A DNA stretch of 55,155 nucleotides. Origin: Candidatus Zixiibacteriota bacterium (GTDB lineage: Bacteria; Zixibacteria; MSB-5A5; JAABVY01; JAHJOQ01). Under the pieces are notes generated by a model. That model was given only the letters and a program-made list of their open reading frames with translations. It did not search any database and had not been told where the DNA came from. The position numbers and the translations under genes are program-made. The stretch spans positions 1 through 55,155 of the forward strand of contig JAHJOQ010000098.1 in assembly GCA_018820315.1 (NCBI GenBank), written 5' to 3'. Below, piece after piece: positions 316 to 15,538 of this stretch. Numbering within the stretch: the stretch's first letter is position 1; every line of letters starts with the position of its first letter.

Positions 316-3141
316 ATGAGTGAAGGATACATTACGATAAAAGGTGCTCGCGAGCACAATCTGAAAAACATCGACGTCTCGATTCCACGAGACAAGCTCG
401 TCGTAATCACCGGGTTATCGGGTTCCGGCAAGTCTTCGCTGGCTTTTGACACAATCTACGCCGAGGGGCAGCGACGGTATGTGGAGTCGCTTTCGGCCTA
501 TGCCCGTCAGTTCCTCGGGTTGATGGAGAAGCCGGATGTCGACGTAATCGATGGCCTCTCTCCCGCAATCTCAATCGAGCAGCGGTCGTCTGGCAAGAAC
601 CCGCGATCTACGGTCGGCACAGTGACCGAGATATACGATTATTTGAGGCTATTATATGCCCGAATTGGTGTCCCGCACTGCTTCAATTGTGGGGAGAAAA
701 TAACTCAACAGACATCCTCGCAGATTGTGGAAACAGTCATGGAGCTTCCCGAAAAGACCAGGATACAGATACTTGCTCCGCTTGTGCGCGGAAGGAAGGG
801 CGAACATCGCGAGATTATCGATGAGGTCATTCGGGAAGGATTCGTGAGAGTCAGGATTGATGAGGAAGTCTACCCGACCGATGATCTACCACTCCTCGAC
901 AAGAACAAGAAGCACTCGATTGAGATAGTTGTTGATCGCCTTGCGAGAACCTCGAATGTCAAGAAGAGACTCGCCGACTCGATTGAGACCGCCCTCAAGC
1001 TGTCGTCAGGGGTAGTGCTAATTGATGTGACTGGTGGTGAGGAGATGATCTTCTCCGAGAAATATGCCTGCGTCAAGTGCGGAATATCCTTCGAGGAACT
1101 CTCACCACGAATGTTTTCGTTCAACTCCCCTTATGGCGCCTGCGCCGTTTGCGGTGGGCTTGGGAACAAGATGGAGATTGATCCCGAATTGATCGTTCCC
1201 GATGAGAATGCGAGCATAGCCAAAGGCGCAGTGCATCCATGGGGCTCAGATATTTCAAACTGGGTCCGTTTCCAACTGCGCGGATTGGCCGAACATTTCG
1301 GCTTCAAGCTCTCTGTCCCGTGGAATAAGCTGCCGGAAAATGTAAGAAAGGCGATTCTCTATGGATCCGGCAAAACAGAGATCAATTTCAAGTACGAGCG
1401 ATCATCGGGAAGAGGCTCGGGTGAATATGTCGGCACTTTCGAAGGAGTCGTTCCGAACCTCGAAAGAAGATACAAGCAGACCGAGTCCTCGGGTATTAGG
1501 TCCTGGATCGAGCAGTATATGTCGATTAAGGCATGCCCGCTCTGCGGTGGCGCTCGCCTGAAGCGAGAGTCTCTGGCGGTTACAGTTCATAAGAGGAGTA
1601 TCCATCACCTAACACAAATGTCTGTCAAGGATGCGAAGAAGTTTTTCGCAGGTCTGAAACTGAGCAAGCGGGATCGGACAATCGCCCACCAGATTATGAA
1701 GGAGCTGAGAGACCGCCTCGGATTTCTCTCGAATGTAGGATTAGATTATCTGACGTTAGACAGAGCCGCCTCGACGTTGTCAGGGGGAGAGGCGCAGCGC
1801 ATAAGGCTCGCCACACAGATCGGTTCGAGGCTGGTCGGTGTGCTCTACATCCTCGATGAACCATCGATCGGGCTGCATCAGAGAGACAACGGGAGATTGT
1901 TGTCAACACTGACTGAGCTCCGGGATCTCGGAAACACGGTGATCGTTGTCGAGCATGACAGGGAGACTATCGAAACATCCGATTATGTAATCGATCTGGG
2001 TCCCGGTGCGGGGAAGTACGGCGGTTCTATTGTCGCCGAGGGTACTCCGAAGCAGATCATGAAGTCGGAGAAGTCGCTGACAGGCAAGTATTTATCGCGA
2101 AAAGCGTTCATTCCGGCGCCCAATGGCCGTATGACAGGCAATGGTATGAAGTTGAAGCTCTCTGGTGCAAAAGGAAATAACCTTCAACAGGTCGATGTCG
2201 AGATTCCGCTCGGCACATTCACATGTGTGACGGGTGTTTCGGGATCGGGCAAGTCGACGCTCATAAACGAGACCCTCTACCCGGCGCTCGCAAGGCACTT
2301 CTTTGGATCGCGAAGGGTGCCGTTGCCGTACCGCAAACTTGATGGTGTCGAGTATATAGATAAAGTCATTGATATTGACCAGTCGCCGATCGGAAGAACA
2401 CCGAGATCCAATCCGGCTACCTACACCGGCACATTCACCCATATTCGTGATCTCTTTGCCCAGCTTCCGGAATCGAAAATCAGGGGTTATCGACCCGGGC
2501 GGTTTTCGTTCAATGTCAAAGGGGGGAGATGCGAAGCGTGTCAGGGTGATGGTATAATCAAAATAGAGATGCATTTCTTGCCCGATGTCTATGTTCCCTG
2601 CGAAGTCTGTAAGGGCAAACGGTATAATCGCGAAACTCTTGAGATTACTTTCAAAGGTAAGAGCATTGCGGATGTGCTCGATCTGACCGTTGACGAAGCG
2701 CTTGAGTTCTTCGAGAGAATTCCTCCTCTGAGACGCAAGCTGCTGACTCTGCAGCGAGTGGGGCTCGGTTACATCCATCTCGGCCAGCAGGCCACGACGC
2801 TTTCCGGGGGAGAGGCGCAGCGAGTCAAACTATCGACAGAGCTCTCAAAGACTTCGACCGGATCCACGCTATACATTCTGGATGAACCGACAACTGGATT
2901 GCACTTCGAGGACATCAAGATGCTCCTCTCGGTTCTCAACGATCTCGTCTCTCTCGGTAACACCGTTCTGGTGATCGAGCACAATCTTGACGTTATCAAG
3001 ACCGCCGATTACATTGTTGACCTTGGTCCGGAGGGTGGGGACGAAGGGGGGAAATTGATCGCTGCCGGGACACCCGAAGAAGTGATGAACGTGAAGGCAT
3101 CCTATACCGGACAATATCTCAAGCGGGAATTAGCTAAATAA
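316..3141 (+). CDS. uvrA: UvrABC system protein A (excinuclease ATPase)
   Basis: This 941-residue protein is a full-length UvrA, the damage-recognition ATPase of nucleotide excision repair that loads UvrB on DNA. It carries two ABC modules. The first has Walker [13 protein letters not shown] near residue 33 and signature [12 protein letters not shown]; the second has Walker [16 protein letters not shown] near residue 640 and signature [12 protein letters not shown]. Zinc-binding CxxC pairs appear as CVKC and CAVC in the first half and as CEAC and CEVC in the second. Both D-loop regions ([11 protein letters not shown] and [11 protein letters not shown]) are intact. The length and the ATG at 316 fit the family. 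It stands alone, with no uvrB or uvrC nearby. Confidence 0.98.
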
Positions 3142-3193
3142 GTATGGCTACCCGTCAGCAATATCAGTCTGTTTTCGCTGTCCCTATGCTAAC

Positions 3194-3409
3194 TCAGATT
3201 CGTCGAACGAGTAGCTTAATCGTGCCATCAAGAATCTTGCCGACTATCTCCGTGAATCGTTGCGGTGGCAAACTCTGCAATCTGAGCGGATGCCAATATT
3301 CAGATGTCGACCTGATACGGCTCGACTGCGATGCGCGCTTGTCTTCCGAGTTCACGCGTTCCTCCGTTGAGAATTGTAATGTCTGAGTGGAACGAGTTAC
3401 ATTATCCAC
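3194..3409 (-). pseudogene. second copy of the small HPLRLQ protein, probably degenerate
   Basis: The last 36 or so residues of this 71-codon ORF (YWHPLRLQSLPP, then FTEIVGKILDG and KLLVRRI) align without gaps with the 56-residue protein encoded at 3560-3730, at about 60% identity by eye. The ORF opens with GTG at 3409 and has no convincing ribosome binding site. The N-terminal half has no counterpart in the other copy. It is either a decayed paralogue or a gene whose true start lies further in. Its function is unknown. Confidence 0.4.
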
Positions 3410-8569: not shown

Positions 8570-10180
8570 CTATGAATCCCGCTTCATTACAGTGTCTCTC
8601 AGATAGTGCTCGTCGTCAGTCTCCGGGTAATCGACGTTGTAGTGCAAACCTCTTGATTCCCTGCGACTTATCGCAGACTCGACGATTAAGTGCGCCGAGG
8701 TCACCAGATTCCTCAATTCTATAGCCGTGAAAGAGGGCGGCAGCATGCGGTGAAACTCCTCTGTTTCTTCTGACAGGATTCGGAGTCTTTTCCGCGCTCG
8801 CTGCAGTCGCTCATTCGATCTGACCACGCCGACATAATCCCACATGAGGCGTCGCAATTCGCCGAGGCTGTGCGATATCAGCACCTCTTCATGTTCGCCG
8901 ACCGGGCCGCGTGAATTCGTCCGATAATCGATCACCGAAGATGGGGGGCTGAAAGAACTGATGGATCCGAAGTCTTCAATGGCTGTGTAAGCGGCAAACT
9001 CCGCCGTTACCACTGCTTCGAGAAGCGAGTTGGATGCCAGCCTGTTTGCGCCATGCATACCGGTACATGCAGTTTCACCGACCGTATAGAGATGCTCGAT
9101 ATCAGTTCTTCCCTCAACATCCGTCTGAATTCCTCCACACATGTAATGAGCAGCAGGCACCACCGGAATTGGTGTGCGCGTGATGTCGATTTCGAGTGCG
9201 GAGAGTCTGCTATATATGATGGGGAACCGTCGCATGATGAATGCAGCGTCGATTTCGCTCAGATCGAGGAATACGCATGCGTCCCCGGAGAGCTTCAGCT
9301 CGCGGTCAATCGCCCGCGCAACGACATCTCTCGGTGCGAGGTCTCTTTGCGGGTGATACTTCACCATGAACTCCTCGCCCGATTTCAATTTCAACTTGGC
9401 GCCCTCGCCTCTGACTGCTTCGGAAATCAGGAAGGAATCGCCTTGAGGATGGCAGAGTGATGTCGGGTGGAACTGCATGAATTCCATATTAGCGATCGAC
9501 GCTCCGGCTCTATATGCCATCGCAACACCATCGCCTGTCGCGATGCCTGGATTCGTTGTATGTAAATAGGCCCGTCCAACTCCGCCGGTAGCCAGCAGAG
9601 TAATTGGAGCTACGAATGCTTCCATCTCACCGGAAAGCGCATCGAAAACAGAGCATCCGAAGCATGTGCGTTTACCGGCAGCGGTGTCGACCAGAAGCTC
9701 CGCCGCGAGATGATCTTCGAATATCTCTATATTGGGATTTGCCTTGATTGCAGTGAGCAGTCTTGTCTCGACTTCTCTTCCTGTGTAGTCAGCCGCGTGC
9801 ACAACTCTCTTCTCGGAGTGCCCCCCTTCCTGCCCGGCATCGAGTGAACTCAGAGTCATGTCTCTGCCCGAACGTGAGAAATCGACGCCGAGTTTGAGAA
9901 GCTCTTCGATAGCGTACGGACCGCGCTCGACAATTCTCTTGACTACTCCTTCGTGACAAAGACCTCGTCCTGCCAGCAGAGTATCGTTTATGTGCCTGTC
10001 GAATGAATCCTGTGACTTGATTACCGACGCAATGCCACCCTGAGCGTAGTTGGTATTTGACTCAGAATCCTTCTTCTTGGTGACGATCGCGACTTTGCCC
10101 CTCAGTGCTGCTCTAAGAGCAAACGAAAGCCCGGCTATTCCCGATCCGACAACAAGGAAATCTATCTTATGAACTACCAT
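8570..10180 (-). CDS. nadB: L-aspartate oxidase
   Basis: NadB oxidises L-aspartate to iminoaspartate, the first step of de novo NAD synthesis. The protein has 536 residues, the usual length. The FAD dinucleotide fold is at the N-terminus (FLVVGSGIAGLSFALRA), and the family blocks NYAQGGIA, EGGHSEKRVVHAADYTG, MEFMQFHPTSL, RGEGAKL and ANRLASNSLLEAVV are all present. I start it at ATG 10180, with AGGTG six bases upstream; a GTG three codons earlier is possible. The start overlaps the lpxK end by 14 bases. nadA is not in the window, but nadC is present at 31.2 kb on the other strand. Confidence 0.97.
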   Translation of the reverse strand: MVVHKIDFLVVGSGIAGLSFALRAALRGKVAIVTKKKDSESNTNYAQGGIASVIKSQDSFDRHINDTLLAGRGLCHEGVVKRIVERGPYAIEELLKLGVDFSRSGRDMTLSSLDAGQEGGHSEKRVVHAADYTGREVETRLLTAIKANPNIEIFEDHLAAELLVDTAAGKRTCFGCSVFDALSGEMEAFVAPITLLATGGVGRAYLHTTNPGIATGDGVAMAYRAGASIANMEFMQFHPTSLCHPQGDSFLISEAVRGEGAKLKLKSGEEFMVKYHPQRDLAPRDVVARAIDRELKLSGDACVFLDLSEIDAAFIMRRFPIIYSRLSALEIDITRTPIPVVPAAHYMCGGIQTDVEGRTDIEHLYTVGETACTGMHGANRLASNSLLEAVVTAEFAAYTAIEDFGSISSFSPPSSVIDYRTNSRGPVGEHEEVLISHSLGELRRLMWDYVGVVRSNERLQRARKRLRILSEETEEFHRMLPPSFTAIELRNLVTSAHLIVESAISRRESRGLHYNVDYPETDDEHYLRDTVMKRDS

Positions 10181-12558: not shown

Positions 12559-12635
12559 CGCTCGCTGAACATGCATGAGATACAGACCGGAATATAGCGA
12601 AATAGATTTTTTCATGCAAACATGCAAAAAGTGAC

Positions 12636-12664
12636 TTGACAAACGATCATTCGACAGTTATAAT
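12636..12664 (+). promoter_or_regulatory. perfect consensus sigma70-type promoter facing a gene-free region
   Basis: TTGACA (12636-12641), exactly 17 bases, then TATAAT (12659-12664): every consensus position matches. Transcription would start near 12671 on the plus strand, away from waaA and into about 1.1 kb with no protein gene. Such a strong promoter before non-coding sequence suggests an RNA gene or a long leader. Confidence 0.65.
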
Positions 12665-13260
12665 GAAATTGCTTGAAAGGAGCATCTGCATACTATCTTC
12701 ATTGCTACTGTTTGTAAACTAACTCTCGTTCTCAGCATAGGATGATATCAGCTTTATAACTTTCTTGTTACCGTTTTTACATGCGTTAACCCCAAGCTTC
12801 GGCAATCGTGCGTCGAAGGTAAGGACGGTAAGCTCTCACGACCCCCTTGATACTGTGCTCTAAATTCTTGAACTCATTGTTCTAACAGGCATATGCCGGA
12901 TTGGAGACAGTGCAACCTACCAAAGCGCTACAGAATTAGTAAGACATAACCTGACTCGGGATATTCATCCTGGGACGAAAGAGTCTTATAAGGAACTGTT
13001 ACCGCCGAGCTTTAGAAGCTGAAGAGTGTTGTCCGAGGATGGACGGCATAAACGTCTAATGTGAATCCTGTTACGCAGTGCAGACTGCGGGACGGGAGGG
13101 AGGTGGTAATAGCAAGCCGCATAACCTTCAAGCACCAGTTTCACCGTGGTTTGAACGTTGAGGGGGGATCTATTCGAGTCGGACTCGCTCTTCGTCAGAC
13201 CTGTGTAGGGATACACGGCATTTGACTGAGTGAGTTTTGGCAGCTCTGTCCGTGAGACCG

Positions 13261-13291
13261 GGCACGTTCGGCCAGCTCTGCCGGACGTGCC
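13261..13291 (+). other. strong 12-bp stem-loop
   Basis: GGCACGT (13261-13267) pairs perfectly with ACGTGCC (13285-13291). The stem continues inward with one T-G wobble and then CGGC/GCCG, closing a seven-base loop at 13273-13279. No T run follows, so it is not a simple terminator. A separate perfect 14-base palindrome (TGGAATCGATTCCA) follows at 13296-13309. Confidence 0.7.
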
Positions 13292-13404
13292 TGGATGGAA
13301 TCGATTCCACAACGTCACGTCGGAAATTGATCCTCAAACCACGGAGTATGCGCAAATCAATTATCTCAGAATCCGGTTTCATCGCCGGAACGGCACAGCA
13401 AAAT

Positions 13405-13474
13405 AAGCCCCGTTGCGGTAGCGTTCCGCGACACAGTACCACGGGGGGCAGAGCGATCTGCCCCCTGGGGGCTT
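13405..13474 (+). other. predicted three-way-junction RNA fold
   Basis: An outer helix AAGCCCC/GGGGCTT (13405-13411 with 13468-13474) encloses two hairpins. The first is GTTGCGG/CCGCGAC (13412-13418 with 13426-13432, one wobble). The second is a perfect nine-pair stem GGGGGCAGA/TCTGCCCCC (13444-13452 with 13457-13465) closed by a GCGA tetraloop of the GNRA class. No T tract follows. The nested, fully paired arrangement is what a functional RNA domain looks like. Confidence 0.6.
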
Positions 13475-13643
13475 CGAAAGAAATCAATTAATTCTCTCCC
13501 TCAGATTGCCGGTTGCAGGTTAGTTGGTTCTGCAGCCGGCTTCTCCGTTTGGGGGGCTAAGGTATTCCATTCATAGATTCCTAATGATTGCCAAAGGTAG
13601 CAACACAGCACATTGACTAGTCGTCCAGCACTGATGTTTTCAT

Positions 13644-13672
13644 TTGACAAGCTATCATCGGAGAAGTATTGT
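13644..13672 (+). promoter_or_regulatory. possible promoter of the ATPase-TOPRIM module
   Basis: TTGACA (13644-13649) is a full consensus -35 box. TATTGT (13667-13672, 4 of 6) lies 17 bases downstream. The start point would be near 13679, giving a leader of about 115 bases that includes the hairpin at 13736-13768. Confidence 0.45.
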
Positions 13673-13735: not shown

Positions 13736-13768
13736 GTGTGTGGTCCAATCCAAGCAAGGTCCACACAC
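13736..13768 (+). promoter_or_regulatory. leader hairpin just upstream of the ATPase ribosome binding site
   Basis: GTGTGTGG (13736-13743) pairs with CCACACAC (13761-13768), with a further CC/GG pair inside after a T-T mismatch. The stem ends 13 bases before the GGGAGG ribosome binding site at 13782-13787, so it could affect expression of the module or mark the operator of a regulator. Confidence 0.45.
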
Positions 13769-13793
13769 ACTGAAGTTCCGCGGGAGGCAAAGC

Positions 13794-14972
13794 ATGTTGC
13801 AAGAGATCAAAATAGACAATTTCATGTCTTTGATTAATGTGGTTTTCGAGCCTAAAGATGCAAACCTCGTCGTTGGAGTGAACAATGCAGGCAAGACTAA
13901 TCTGACCAGAGCCCTGATGTTTCTCTCTTCGACCGCTTGGCGCCCTCTGGATGAATGTGCTCAGTTCATTGGGATTCCGATTCAGTATATCCGAAATGTC
14001 TATTACAAGAAGCAAACGGTAGACATTTCTGTTAAGGCCACCGTTCCATTCGAGGACCATACTGCTGGCTTCGCGTACTCCCTTCGAATATCATTCACAA
14101 ATCGCACTACTCCGGTACTAGAGATGGAGGTTGACTCCGAGTCTCTCATCATCGATGCTCCGGGATTTGAGAGTGTCGAGCTTCTAAACAACACACGTGA
14201 AGGTGTGTCCCTTCTCAACGAAATTGATCATCTTAAAGGAGAAACCAAATACGTCAAGACCTTTGCACCTCGCAATACTACAATGTTGCATCGACTCTAT
14301 GACTTAGAGACAAACAAAAGATCTAATTGCTTCAAACGCTACCTGCAATTCTGGCAATCGTACGAACTCGATCAATCAGCGCTGCGAGGGGGCAACTACA
14401 TCCCTAACGACTTCCTTCTTAACCATACTGGCGGGAATTTGGCGTCAGTCATATACCATTTGAAGAAAAGCAATGAGCAGTCATATAGAGTGCTCCTTGA
14501 TTGCGTGAAAATGATGGAACCAGATCTTGAGTATATAAACTTCTTCGGTGGTGACGATCAACGTAATGTCGCAATGAGCTTTGACTATAAATCACAGGTG
14601 AGGCTGCCAGGCTGGACAGCCTCAAGTGGCACACTTCGATTCCTGGCTCTGGCATATGTCTTGCTTGCTCAACCGTTGCTTCAATCTCGACCATTGATCA
14701 TGGTCGAAGAACCGGAAAACGGCATCTATGTTGGTCTTCTTAAAGAGATACTTAGTATGGCTTTAGAGGGGGGCGGGCCAAGACCTCAACTACTATTCAC
14801 TTCTCATTCTCCCTATTTCGTCGATCTTTTTGACAAAAGACTGGACAGCGTCTTTGTCATGAAGAGGGACGAATATGCATCCAAAATCTCTCGCATAGAT
14901 GCTGCGGAGGCCGAGAATCGACTGAAAGAATATCCTTTGGGCGAGCAGCACTTTTGGGAAATGCTGACATGA
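13794..14972 (+). CDS. OLD/AAA15-type ATPase of a putative two-gene defence module
   Basis: This 392-residue protein is an SMC/ABC-like ATPase of the OLD/AAA15 group. The Walker A is GVNNAGKTN at residues 28-36, directly after the EIKIDNFMSL opening typical of such ATPases. Near the end come the signature-like GWTASSGTLRFLALA, Walker B LIMVEEPENGIY and the switch LFTSHSPYFVDLFD. No nuclease domain is fused to it; the next gene supplies a TOPRIM-like protein. The start is ATG 13794, six bases after GGGAGG, rather than an upstream in-frame codon. The gene pair has the layout of PARIS or split-OLD systems, in which the ATPase senses infection and releases or activates the nuclease, but membership is not proven. 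Confidence 0.85.
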   Translation: MLQEIKIDNFMSLINVVFEPKDANLVVGVNNAGKTNLTRALMFLSSTAWRPLDECAQFIGIPIQYIRNVYYKKQTVDISVKATVPFEDHTAGFAYSLRISFTNRTTPVLEMEVDSESLIIDAPGFESVELLNNTREGVSLLNEIDHLKGETKYVKTFAPRNTTMLHRLYDLETNKRSNCFKRYLQFWQSYELDQSALRGGNYIPNDFLLNHTGGNLASVIYHLKKSNEQSYRVLLDCVKMMEPDLEYINFFGGDDQRNVAMSFDYKSQVRLPGWTASSGTLRFLALAYVLLAQPLLQSRPLIMVEEPENGIYVGLLKEILSMALEGGGPRPQLLFTSHSPYFVDLFDKRLDSVFVMKRDEYASKISRIDAAEAENRLKEYPLGEQHFWEMLT

Positions 14973-15538
14973 AGATCGGGTACTGCGGGGAAGGGAATGC
15001 CGACGAGGCATTTCTCAAAGGACTCGCTCATCGTTTGTGCCCAGACGCGGAGCTGGAAAGGGGTTCGTTTCGCGGCACCGCGTTGGTGTCGGAGCGACAG
15101 CAATTCAAGAAGACTCTGAAGGTTCTTTGTGATATCAAATGCTGCAAGTATGTGGTTATGCTTAAAGACTGCGACAAGGGCAAGTGGAGAGAAGTAAAGA
15201 AGCAATTCAGTATCCATATTGATTCTGAGTACGAACATATGGTTGTCATTGGAATAGCAGACAGGAATCTGGAATGTTGGCTGGCGCTTGATCGTCCGGC
15301 TCTGGCAGCGGAACTTGGTTGCCAGGAGTCAGAAATACCAGTCAACAACCCTTCTAGCTTTGTCAAGAGCCGATTCGGAGTCCGATCAAGATGTCGCATC
15401 GAAGAATTTGTTAAGAGCAGCGCGCCGCTCAAGAACTGGGTCCAGAAGGGTGACTCGTTCAAGGATTTCTGGGAGCAGATCAGAGACTTTGGAAAGCCCG
15501 AGGACTGTGGAATTGTAGCCCGGATGGATTCCGACTGA
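14969..15538 (+). CDS. TOPRIM / DUF4276-like protein, putative effector of the module
   Basis: This 189-residue protein starts at ATG 14969, overlapping the ATPase stop in an ATGA arrangement, so the two are translationally coupled. It has TOPRIM-like acidic positions: Glu8 in YCGEGNADEAFL, and Asp67 and Asp69 in VVMLKDCDKG. It also has an ADRNLECWLALD segment resembling the E-W-L block of DUF4276 proteins. TOPRIM proteins paired with OLD-type ATPases are usually Mg-dependent nucleases (AriB of PARIS is one example), so a toxin or nuclease role is inferred. The C-terminal third is basic and unfamiliar. No terminator is evident after it, and the DASS transporter is convergent. Confidence 0.7.
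   Translation: MKIGYCGEGNADEAFLKGLAHRLCPDAELERGSFRGTALVSERQQFKKTLKVLCDIKCCKYVVMLKDCDKGKWREVKKQFSIHIDSEYEHMVVIGIADRNLECWLALDRPALAAELGCQESEIPVNNPSSFVKSRFGVRSRCRIEEFVKSSAPLKNWVQKGDSFKDFWEQIRDFGKPEDCGIVARMDSD

Follow-up and report, generated by a model that had tools for sequence, protein, structure and literature searches.

A putative gene for a new structured RNA of about 880 nt in one family of Zixiibacteriota

The window, i.e., the whole stretch of 55,155 nucleotides that was analyzed, very probably contains an independent gene for a new structured RNA of approximately 880 nt, which appears to be vertically inherited in a single family of Zixiibacteriota. A novel RNA gene had been one of the possibilities raised in an earlier sequence-only reading of this region, and this proposal is supported by the presence of a homologue in each of the four sampled genera, by a conserved promoter, terminator, and fold, and by the lack of both an Rfam match and a coding signal. 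The whole of the preferred explanation, in which the product of this gene would be a stable folded particle that works in trans, is given a probability of roughly 0.6, and the scaffold or ribonucleoprotein (RNP) mechanism, considered by itself, is judged slightly better than an even bet. The RNA probably does some cellular job.

Based on a blastn comparison with 98 related whole genomes, the RNA region was found in all three of the other sampled genera of the same family (represented by G001, G002, and G003), and among the remaining genomes only G042 gave a match, which is limited to 27 nt. The four genera therefore supplied three full copies, each of about 800-880 nt, and a partial one (G001), and the blastn blocks are colinear in two of the three relatives. 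The full unit could be read at 8856-9712 on the minus strand in G002 and at 2519-3327 on the plus strand in G003. Only the last part of the RNA is present in G001, because the contig begins inside it, and neither a covariance model (R2) nor a sequence pattern found the 5' part of this copy. The kdtA proteins encoded next to the RNA are only 48-55% identical between the genera, so that unconstrained intergenic DNA should not align at such distances; thus, the DNA encoding the RNA has most likely been retained by selection.

The alignment of the full copies revealed several blocks that are common to every one of them: a (C/U)U(U/C)GARAGGAG-like sequence located where the RNA starts, a middle block with the consensus GGUGGUA(N6)AGCCG...CAAGCACCA, an AGCUYNRUCYGUGAGR block, and a 3' domain with the consensus GCCCC...GCGGUAGCGU...ACAGUAC...GGGGC. 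Identity in the middle block reached 87% over about 44 nt with G002 and 79% over about 53 nt with G003 (blastn). Further downstream, a pyrimidine strand (CUCUCCCUC, or CUCUCCCCCUU in G003) precedes a GC-rich hairpin of diverged sequence, and this arrangement of a nearly invariant pyrimidine run with a GC-rich hairpin on its 3' side was observed in all four genera. The features of the RNA gene are listed in Table 1.

The promoter is composed of TTGACA (12636-12641), a 17-nt spacer, and TATAAT (12659-12664) on the plus strand, and represents a perfect (12/12) sigma-70-type site, as had been claimed from the sequence. It is the sole 12/12 site on either strand of the window, compared with a mean of 0.03 in dinucleotide shuffles of the whole window. 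TTGACA-N17-TATACT was read in both G002 and G003, which gives TTGACA-N17-TATAMT for all three full copies. In the alignment, an upstream GCAAA..ATGCAAAAA sequence also recurs in G003, and part of it in G002. The combination of a consensus promoter with an A-rich upstream element suggests that the RNA is made in quantity.

At the other end, the hairpin of an intrinsic terminator is GC-rich and has diverged in sequence among the four genera, with fold z scores from -2.7 to -4.3. The unit had previously been placed at 12636-13500; the start near 12671 still appears appropriate, but the end at 13500 does not, since the terminator hairpin lies at 13508-13540 and the RNA is predicted to end near 13548. 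At the level of sequence, the occurrence of a promoter and a terminator in the homologues points to an independent transcription unit, and transcription of the RNA may be inferred from these two elements.

The absence of a protein gene downstream of the promoter, which was part of the sequence-only reading, was also confirmed. The longest stop-free stretch on the plus strand of the RNA is 85 codons (70 and 59 codons in the two other full copies), and protein-level likeness between the copies is limited to short patches, spread over all frames and both strands. A small protein encoded by an ORF behind the Shine-Dalgarno (SD)-like sequence GGAGGUGGUA was considered and rejected: no conserved start is present at a proper distance, a 1-nt gap between genera breaks the frame, and the protein patches fall in every frame and on both strands. 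A separate observation concerns positions 13095-13105 (GGAGGGAGGUGGU), which contain a near-perfect complement of the anti-SD sequence (GAGGUGG, in all three full copies) with no ORF behind it; this element could touch the ribosome or be simply structural.

Table 1. Coordinates of the predicted RNA gene and its elements in the window
Feature	Position	Strand	Basis or remark
UP-element-like A-rich upstream element (GCAAACATGCAAAAA...)	12616..12635	+	Role inferred
Large structured RNA, about 878 nt, predicted ends	12671..13548	+	Homologues, single-sequence fold, consensus fold
P1 5' strand CUUGAAAGG, RNA 5' end	12672..12680	+	Predicted by RNAalifold to pair with 13125-13132; mostly invariant
Motif a, GCUACUGU-type (GYUACYGY)	12705..12712	+	Complementary, with G-U pairs, to GCGGUAGC; candidate pairing
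F strand CUGUUACC	12996..13003	+	8-bp helix with 13105-13112
Most conserved middle block GGAGGGAGGUGGUA...AGCCG...CCUUCAAG	13095..13132	+	Contains F partner (13105-13112) and P1 3' strand (13125-13132)
P2 5' strand GAGGGGGGA	13160..13168	+	Closes the 3' domain by pairing with 13493-13502 (RNAalifold prediction)
K arm, closed by ACUCGCUC/GAGUGAGU	13183..13235	+	Two compensatory pairs of 8; broken cells 1/24
M arm, 13-bp hairpin GGGCACGUUCGGC/GCCGGACGUGCCU	13260..13292	+	Predicted stable in three folds
3' domain, a three-way junction that includes the invariant GGUAGCGU loop and the ACAGUAC strand	13405..13475	+	4/4 genera
P2 3' strand UCUCUCCCUC, nearly invariant pyrimidines	13493..13502	+	Four-genus alignment
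Intrinsic terminator, hairpin GCCGGUUGCAG...CUGCAGCCGGC (13508-13540) and tail	13508..13548	+	Hairpin at this place in 4/4 genera

The genomic neighborhood of the RNA gene was compared among the four genera, with gene names assigned by inspection except for an ATPase/TOPRIM pair, which was named from profile matches. The RNA gene adjoins kdtA (waaA) divergently in three genera (the source genome, G002, and G003); in G001, kdtA is found on another contig, with a mechanosensitive-channel-like gene beside it. The genes following the RNA are different in all four: an ATPase gene and then a TOPRIM/DUF4276-like gene, on the same strand as the RNA, in the source genome; a GIY-YIG-like gene in G002; the permease gene that lies beyond the ATPase/TOPRIM pair of the source genome in G003; and a DUF512-like gene, followed by Der-like and RlmN-like genes, in G001. 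Hence, the shared downstream gene expected of a cis-acting leader or riboswitch was not found.

The ATPase (AAA_21/AAA_15) gene and the overlapping TOPRIM/DUF4276-like gene occupy 13740-15538 of the window, and the pair matches the HEC-01A/B and AriA (PARIS) defense profiles. No gene is linked to the RNA across the genera. Because the pair is absent from the same interval in G003, it most likely represents a HEC-01/PARIS-like defense module inserted next to the RNA. A promoter with a 10/12 match (13644-13672), located 3' of the RNA terminator, can serve these two genes. It is therefore very unlikely that the RNA serves the ATPase/TOPRIM genes as a long 5' leader or attenuator, or the defense module as an RNA partner, as the sequence-only reading had suggested for the latter: although the two are adjacent and on the same strand in the source genome, where the description of the RNA as directly upstream of the module is correct, this arrangement does not extend to the relatives, none of which (G001, G002, and G003) has the module after the RNA, and in the source genome an intrinsic terminator separates the RNA from a module that has its own promoter. 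Since the following gene differs in every genus, the ATPase/TOPRIM pair should be viewed as a neighbor and not as a partner.

The remains of a mobile element, another origin proposed earlier, would be in line with a large gene-free stretch beside a likely acquired defense module, but this explanation is hardly credible considering that the RNA is a single copy in its own genome, that flanking direct repeats of >=12 nt are absent, that no phage, plasmid, or viral match was obtained, and that the RNA adjoins kdtA in three genera with a functional-looking promoter and terminator in each.

The structured stems described from the sequence were supported by folding statistics. The 878-nt RNA has a predicted folding energy of -324.6 kcal/mol versus -277.9 +/- 7.3 kcal/mol for shuffled sequences (z -6.4), and the z scores of the three full copies are -6.4, -5.4, and -8.7. 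The three-sequence consensus fold reached -126.4 kcal/mol, compared with -80.0 +/- 6.0 kcal/mol in column-shuffled alignments (z -7.7; 0/100 as good), and an earlier alignment of the three copies gave a consensus-fold z of -9.1, indicating that secondary structure is conserved beyond chance. The consensus signal peaks at alignment columns 301-500 (z -3.0) and 701-900 (z -5.2) and in long-range pairs. No local signal was detected in windows over the first 300-400 columns (z +0.6 to -1.1), so that the fold of the 5' domain is tentative. Compensatory changes in the relatives, which the sequence-only reading had named as a mark of a functional RNA, occur in single helices (2/8 in the K arm, 2/11 in the 3' hairpin P3, and 1/8 in F/H), but their total does not exceed that of shuffled alignments (38 versus 40 +/- 6), which is unsurprising with three sequences and a fold optimized on each. 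The global model is thus carried by energy and a few helices and not by covariation statistics.

The 3' domain alone also folds well in all four genera, with z scores of -5.3 in the source genome, -4.9 in G001, -4.0 in G002, and -4.4 in G003. The same three-way junction was obtained in the source genome, G001, and G002; in G003, the minimum-energy fold retains the outer stem and long hairpin but has a rearranged middle arm. The GNRA-type loops reported from the sequence are indeed present (CAGA-GCGA-UCUG at 13449-13460 and GUGUA-GGGA-UACAC at 13203-13216), but their loop sequence has not been maintained in the relatives, suggesting that GNRA is not the point.

With regard to the overall architecture, the 5' end of the RNA is predicted to pair with the middle of the molecule (P1), which would close a 5' domain. 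The three copies gave P1 duplex energies of -12.1, -10.4, and -13.1 kcal/mol, and other partners are equal or slightly better in G002 and G003. The F helix shows one compensatory U-A/C-G change, one one-sided change, and 1/24 broken cells. In each of the three full copies, motif a is complementary over 8 bp to GCGGUAGC, an invariant element of the 3' domain, and all differences between genera are C/U changes opposite G, which makes this pair a candidate tertiary contact. The UACYGY element occurs four times per full copy versus 0.4-0.7 times in shuffles. In the source genome these elements begin at 12706, 12769, 12851, and 13000, all in the 5' half of the RNA, each of the other full homologues also has four, and most of the copies can pair with downstream GGUGGUAG or GCGGUAGC blocks.

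The 3' domain, in turn, would be closed by pairing between the G-run GAGGGGGGA and the near-invariant UCUCUCCCUC before the terminator (P2), and would carry two long arms (K and M) in addition to the conserved three-way junction. For the P2 duplex, predicted energies lie between -15.1 and -16.3 kcal/mol in all three copies, and G-rich partners compete in some of them. The M arm was read by hand as a hairpin of at least 13 pairs in all three copies, with both sides changed at several pairs. In staphylococcal RNAIII, UCCC loops pair with mRNAs. It is improbable, however, that the RNA is a very large base-pairing regulator in which an accessible UCUCUCCCUC (a C-rich anti-SD seed) or GCGGUAGCGU pairs with mRNAs: the near invariance of UCUCUCCCUC just 5' of the terminator in four genera would fit this role, but the same strand has a strong and conserved internal partner in GAGGGGGGA (-15 to -16 kcal/mol), and most of the about 880 nt would be superfluous. 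In the preferred explanation, the RNA would form a stable folded particle with a role in trans, either an RNA scaffold or an RNP, and would be neither a leader nor a short antisense regulator, which is suggested by the consensus promoter, the absence of a gene linked across genera, and the location of conservation in scattered non-coding blocks and closing helices.

More specialized roles of the core may be considered. A lineage-specific RNA machine, highly expressed, whose core (the three-way junction, the GGUAGCGU loop, and the ACAGUAC strand) would be touched by the repeated UACYGY elements in the 5' half and form a catalytic or cage-like particle of an unseen type, is a speculative and rather unlikely variant. 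It also seems doubtful that the RNA is a new large ribozyme, whether self-processing or trans-acting, with a group II intron or RNase P as its possible ancestor: its size, its multi-domain fold, and the invariant GGUAGCGU loop of the 3' junction together with ACAGUAC could suit a catalytic core, but at E 10 no match to group I introns, group II introns, or RNase P was obtained, no domain-V-like hairpin was seen on reading, and RNase P RNA is encoded elsewhere in the genome. Two specific identities were rejected. A group II intron relic was dismissed on the lack of a match of the three homologues to Rfam intron models at E 10, and a hidden RNase P RNA or tmRNA on the location of both on other contigs (RNase P RNA on C119, 291 bits; tmRNA on C41, 185 bits). 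In comparison with the Zixiibacteriota RNA, 6S and SRP RNAs are far smaller. More generally, the comparison with Rfam 15, including the OLE, GOLLD, and ROOL models, gave no match in the window at the gathering score, and only chance-level matches of the three homologues at E <= 10.

The distribution of the RNA appears to be narrow. With R1, a covariance model for the 3' domain, the four family genomes scored 77-91 bits, and the other 128 of 132 class/phylum genomes reached <=23 bits, with nothing credible; the best scores beyond the family were 23.3 bits (G060) and 19.9 bits (G004), and an R1 search of the order with laxer filters made no addition. A scan of about 85,000 species (one genome each) with exact patterns, which would miss diverged homologues, recovered the three relatives and one Sphingomonas match, the latter being taken as chance (R1 score 12.2 bits). 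No match was found in phage and plasmid collections or, with two RNA motifs, in viral contigs. In the sister family, the corresponding locus has no room for the RNA, since kdtA is immediately preceded by an lpxB-like gene. At the sensitivity used, the RNA thus seems to be kept across the genera of one family and was not found in the sister family. Literature searches for Zixibacteria with noncoding RNA and for Zixiibacteriota with ncRNA found no report, with incomplete coverage of subscription journals and preprints.

Only a small number of bacterial RNAs are comparably large and complex, namely rRNA, RNase P RNA, tmRNA, group I and II introns, OLE, GOLLD, ROOL, and a handful more. OLE, ROOL, and GOLLD are large RNAs of poorly understood function for which RNA-only complexes have recently been found (PMC12286853). 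ROOL RNAs (about 520-660 nt) occur in prophages, phages, and a Lactobacillus megaplasmid, and in Ligilactobacillus salivarius ROOL is as abundant as 16S rRNA (PMC12286853, PMC5643018). Like ROOL, which lacks a known function or protein partner (PMC12286853, PMC5643018), the Zixiibacteriota RNA is a large stand-alone structured RNA; unlike ROOL, it is chromosomal, beside kdtA, with no phage or plasmid association. GOLLD, many members of which exceed 800 nt, is similar in size and is also better conserved in its 3' part than in its 5' part (PMC12286853), whereas the Zixiibacteriota RNA is not phage-linked. The setting of GOLLD and ROOL (phages, prophages, or plasmids, often near tRNAs) was not observed here, and no tRNA gene is present in the window. 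OLE (about 600 nt, in extremophiles of Bacillota) is likewise multi-domain, with scattered highly conserved blocks, and not phage-borne, but it belongs to another phylum, and no consistent neighbor gene that might encode a dedicated protein accompanies the Zixiibacteriota RNA. None of these three families matches the RNA in Rfam. With RNase P RNA and tmRNA it shares vertical inheritance, a single copy, and its own promoter and terminator; it differs in being limited to one family, and both of those RNAs are found elsewhere in the same genome. The likeness to OLE, ROOL, and GOLLD would therefore be one of size, independence, and narrow distribution, with membership in none of them supported by sequence or structure models, and the best reading is a new family of large structured RNA, by sequence unrelated to these three. 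The occurrence of a chromosomal RNA of approximately 880 nt in the genera of one uncultured family points to single families as the place of origin of such RNAs, which may have escaped notice so far because too few genomes were available. With this RNA, a defined object becomes available for probing, cryo-EM, and metatranscriptome studies.

A minor observation was made around the terminator loop, where 26 of 27 bases (ATTGCYGGTTGCAGGTTAGTTGGTT, window 13504-13530) recur at G042:C93:18128-18154 (L007:1501-1527). G042 is a distant member of the class, and its 27-nt match adjoins another putative terminator; the likeness may be due either to chance or to a small shared element.
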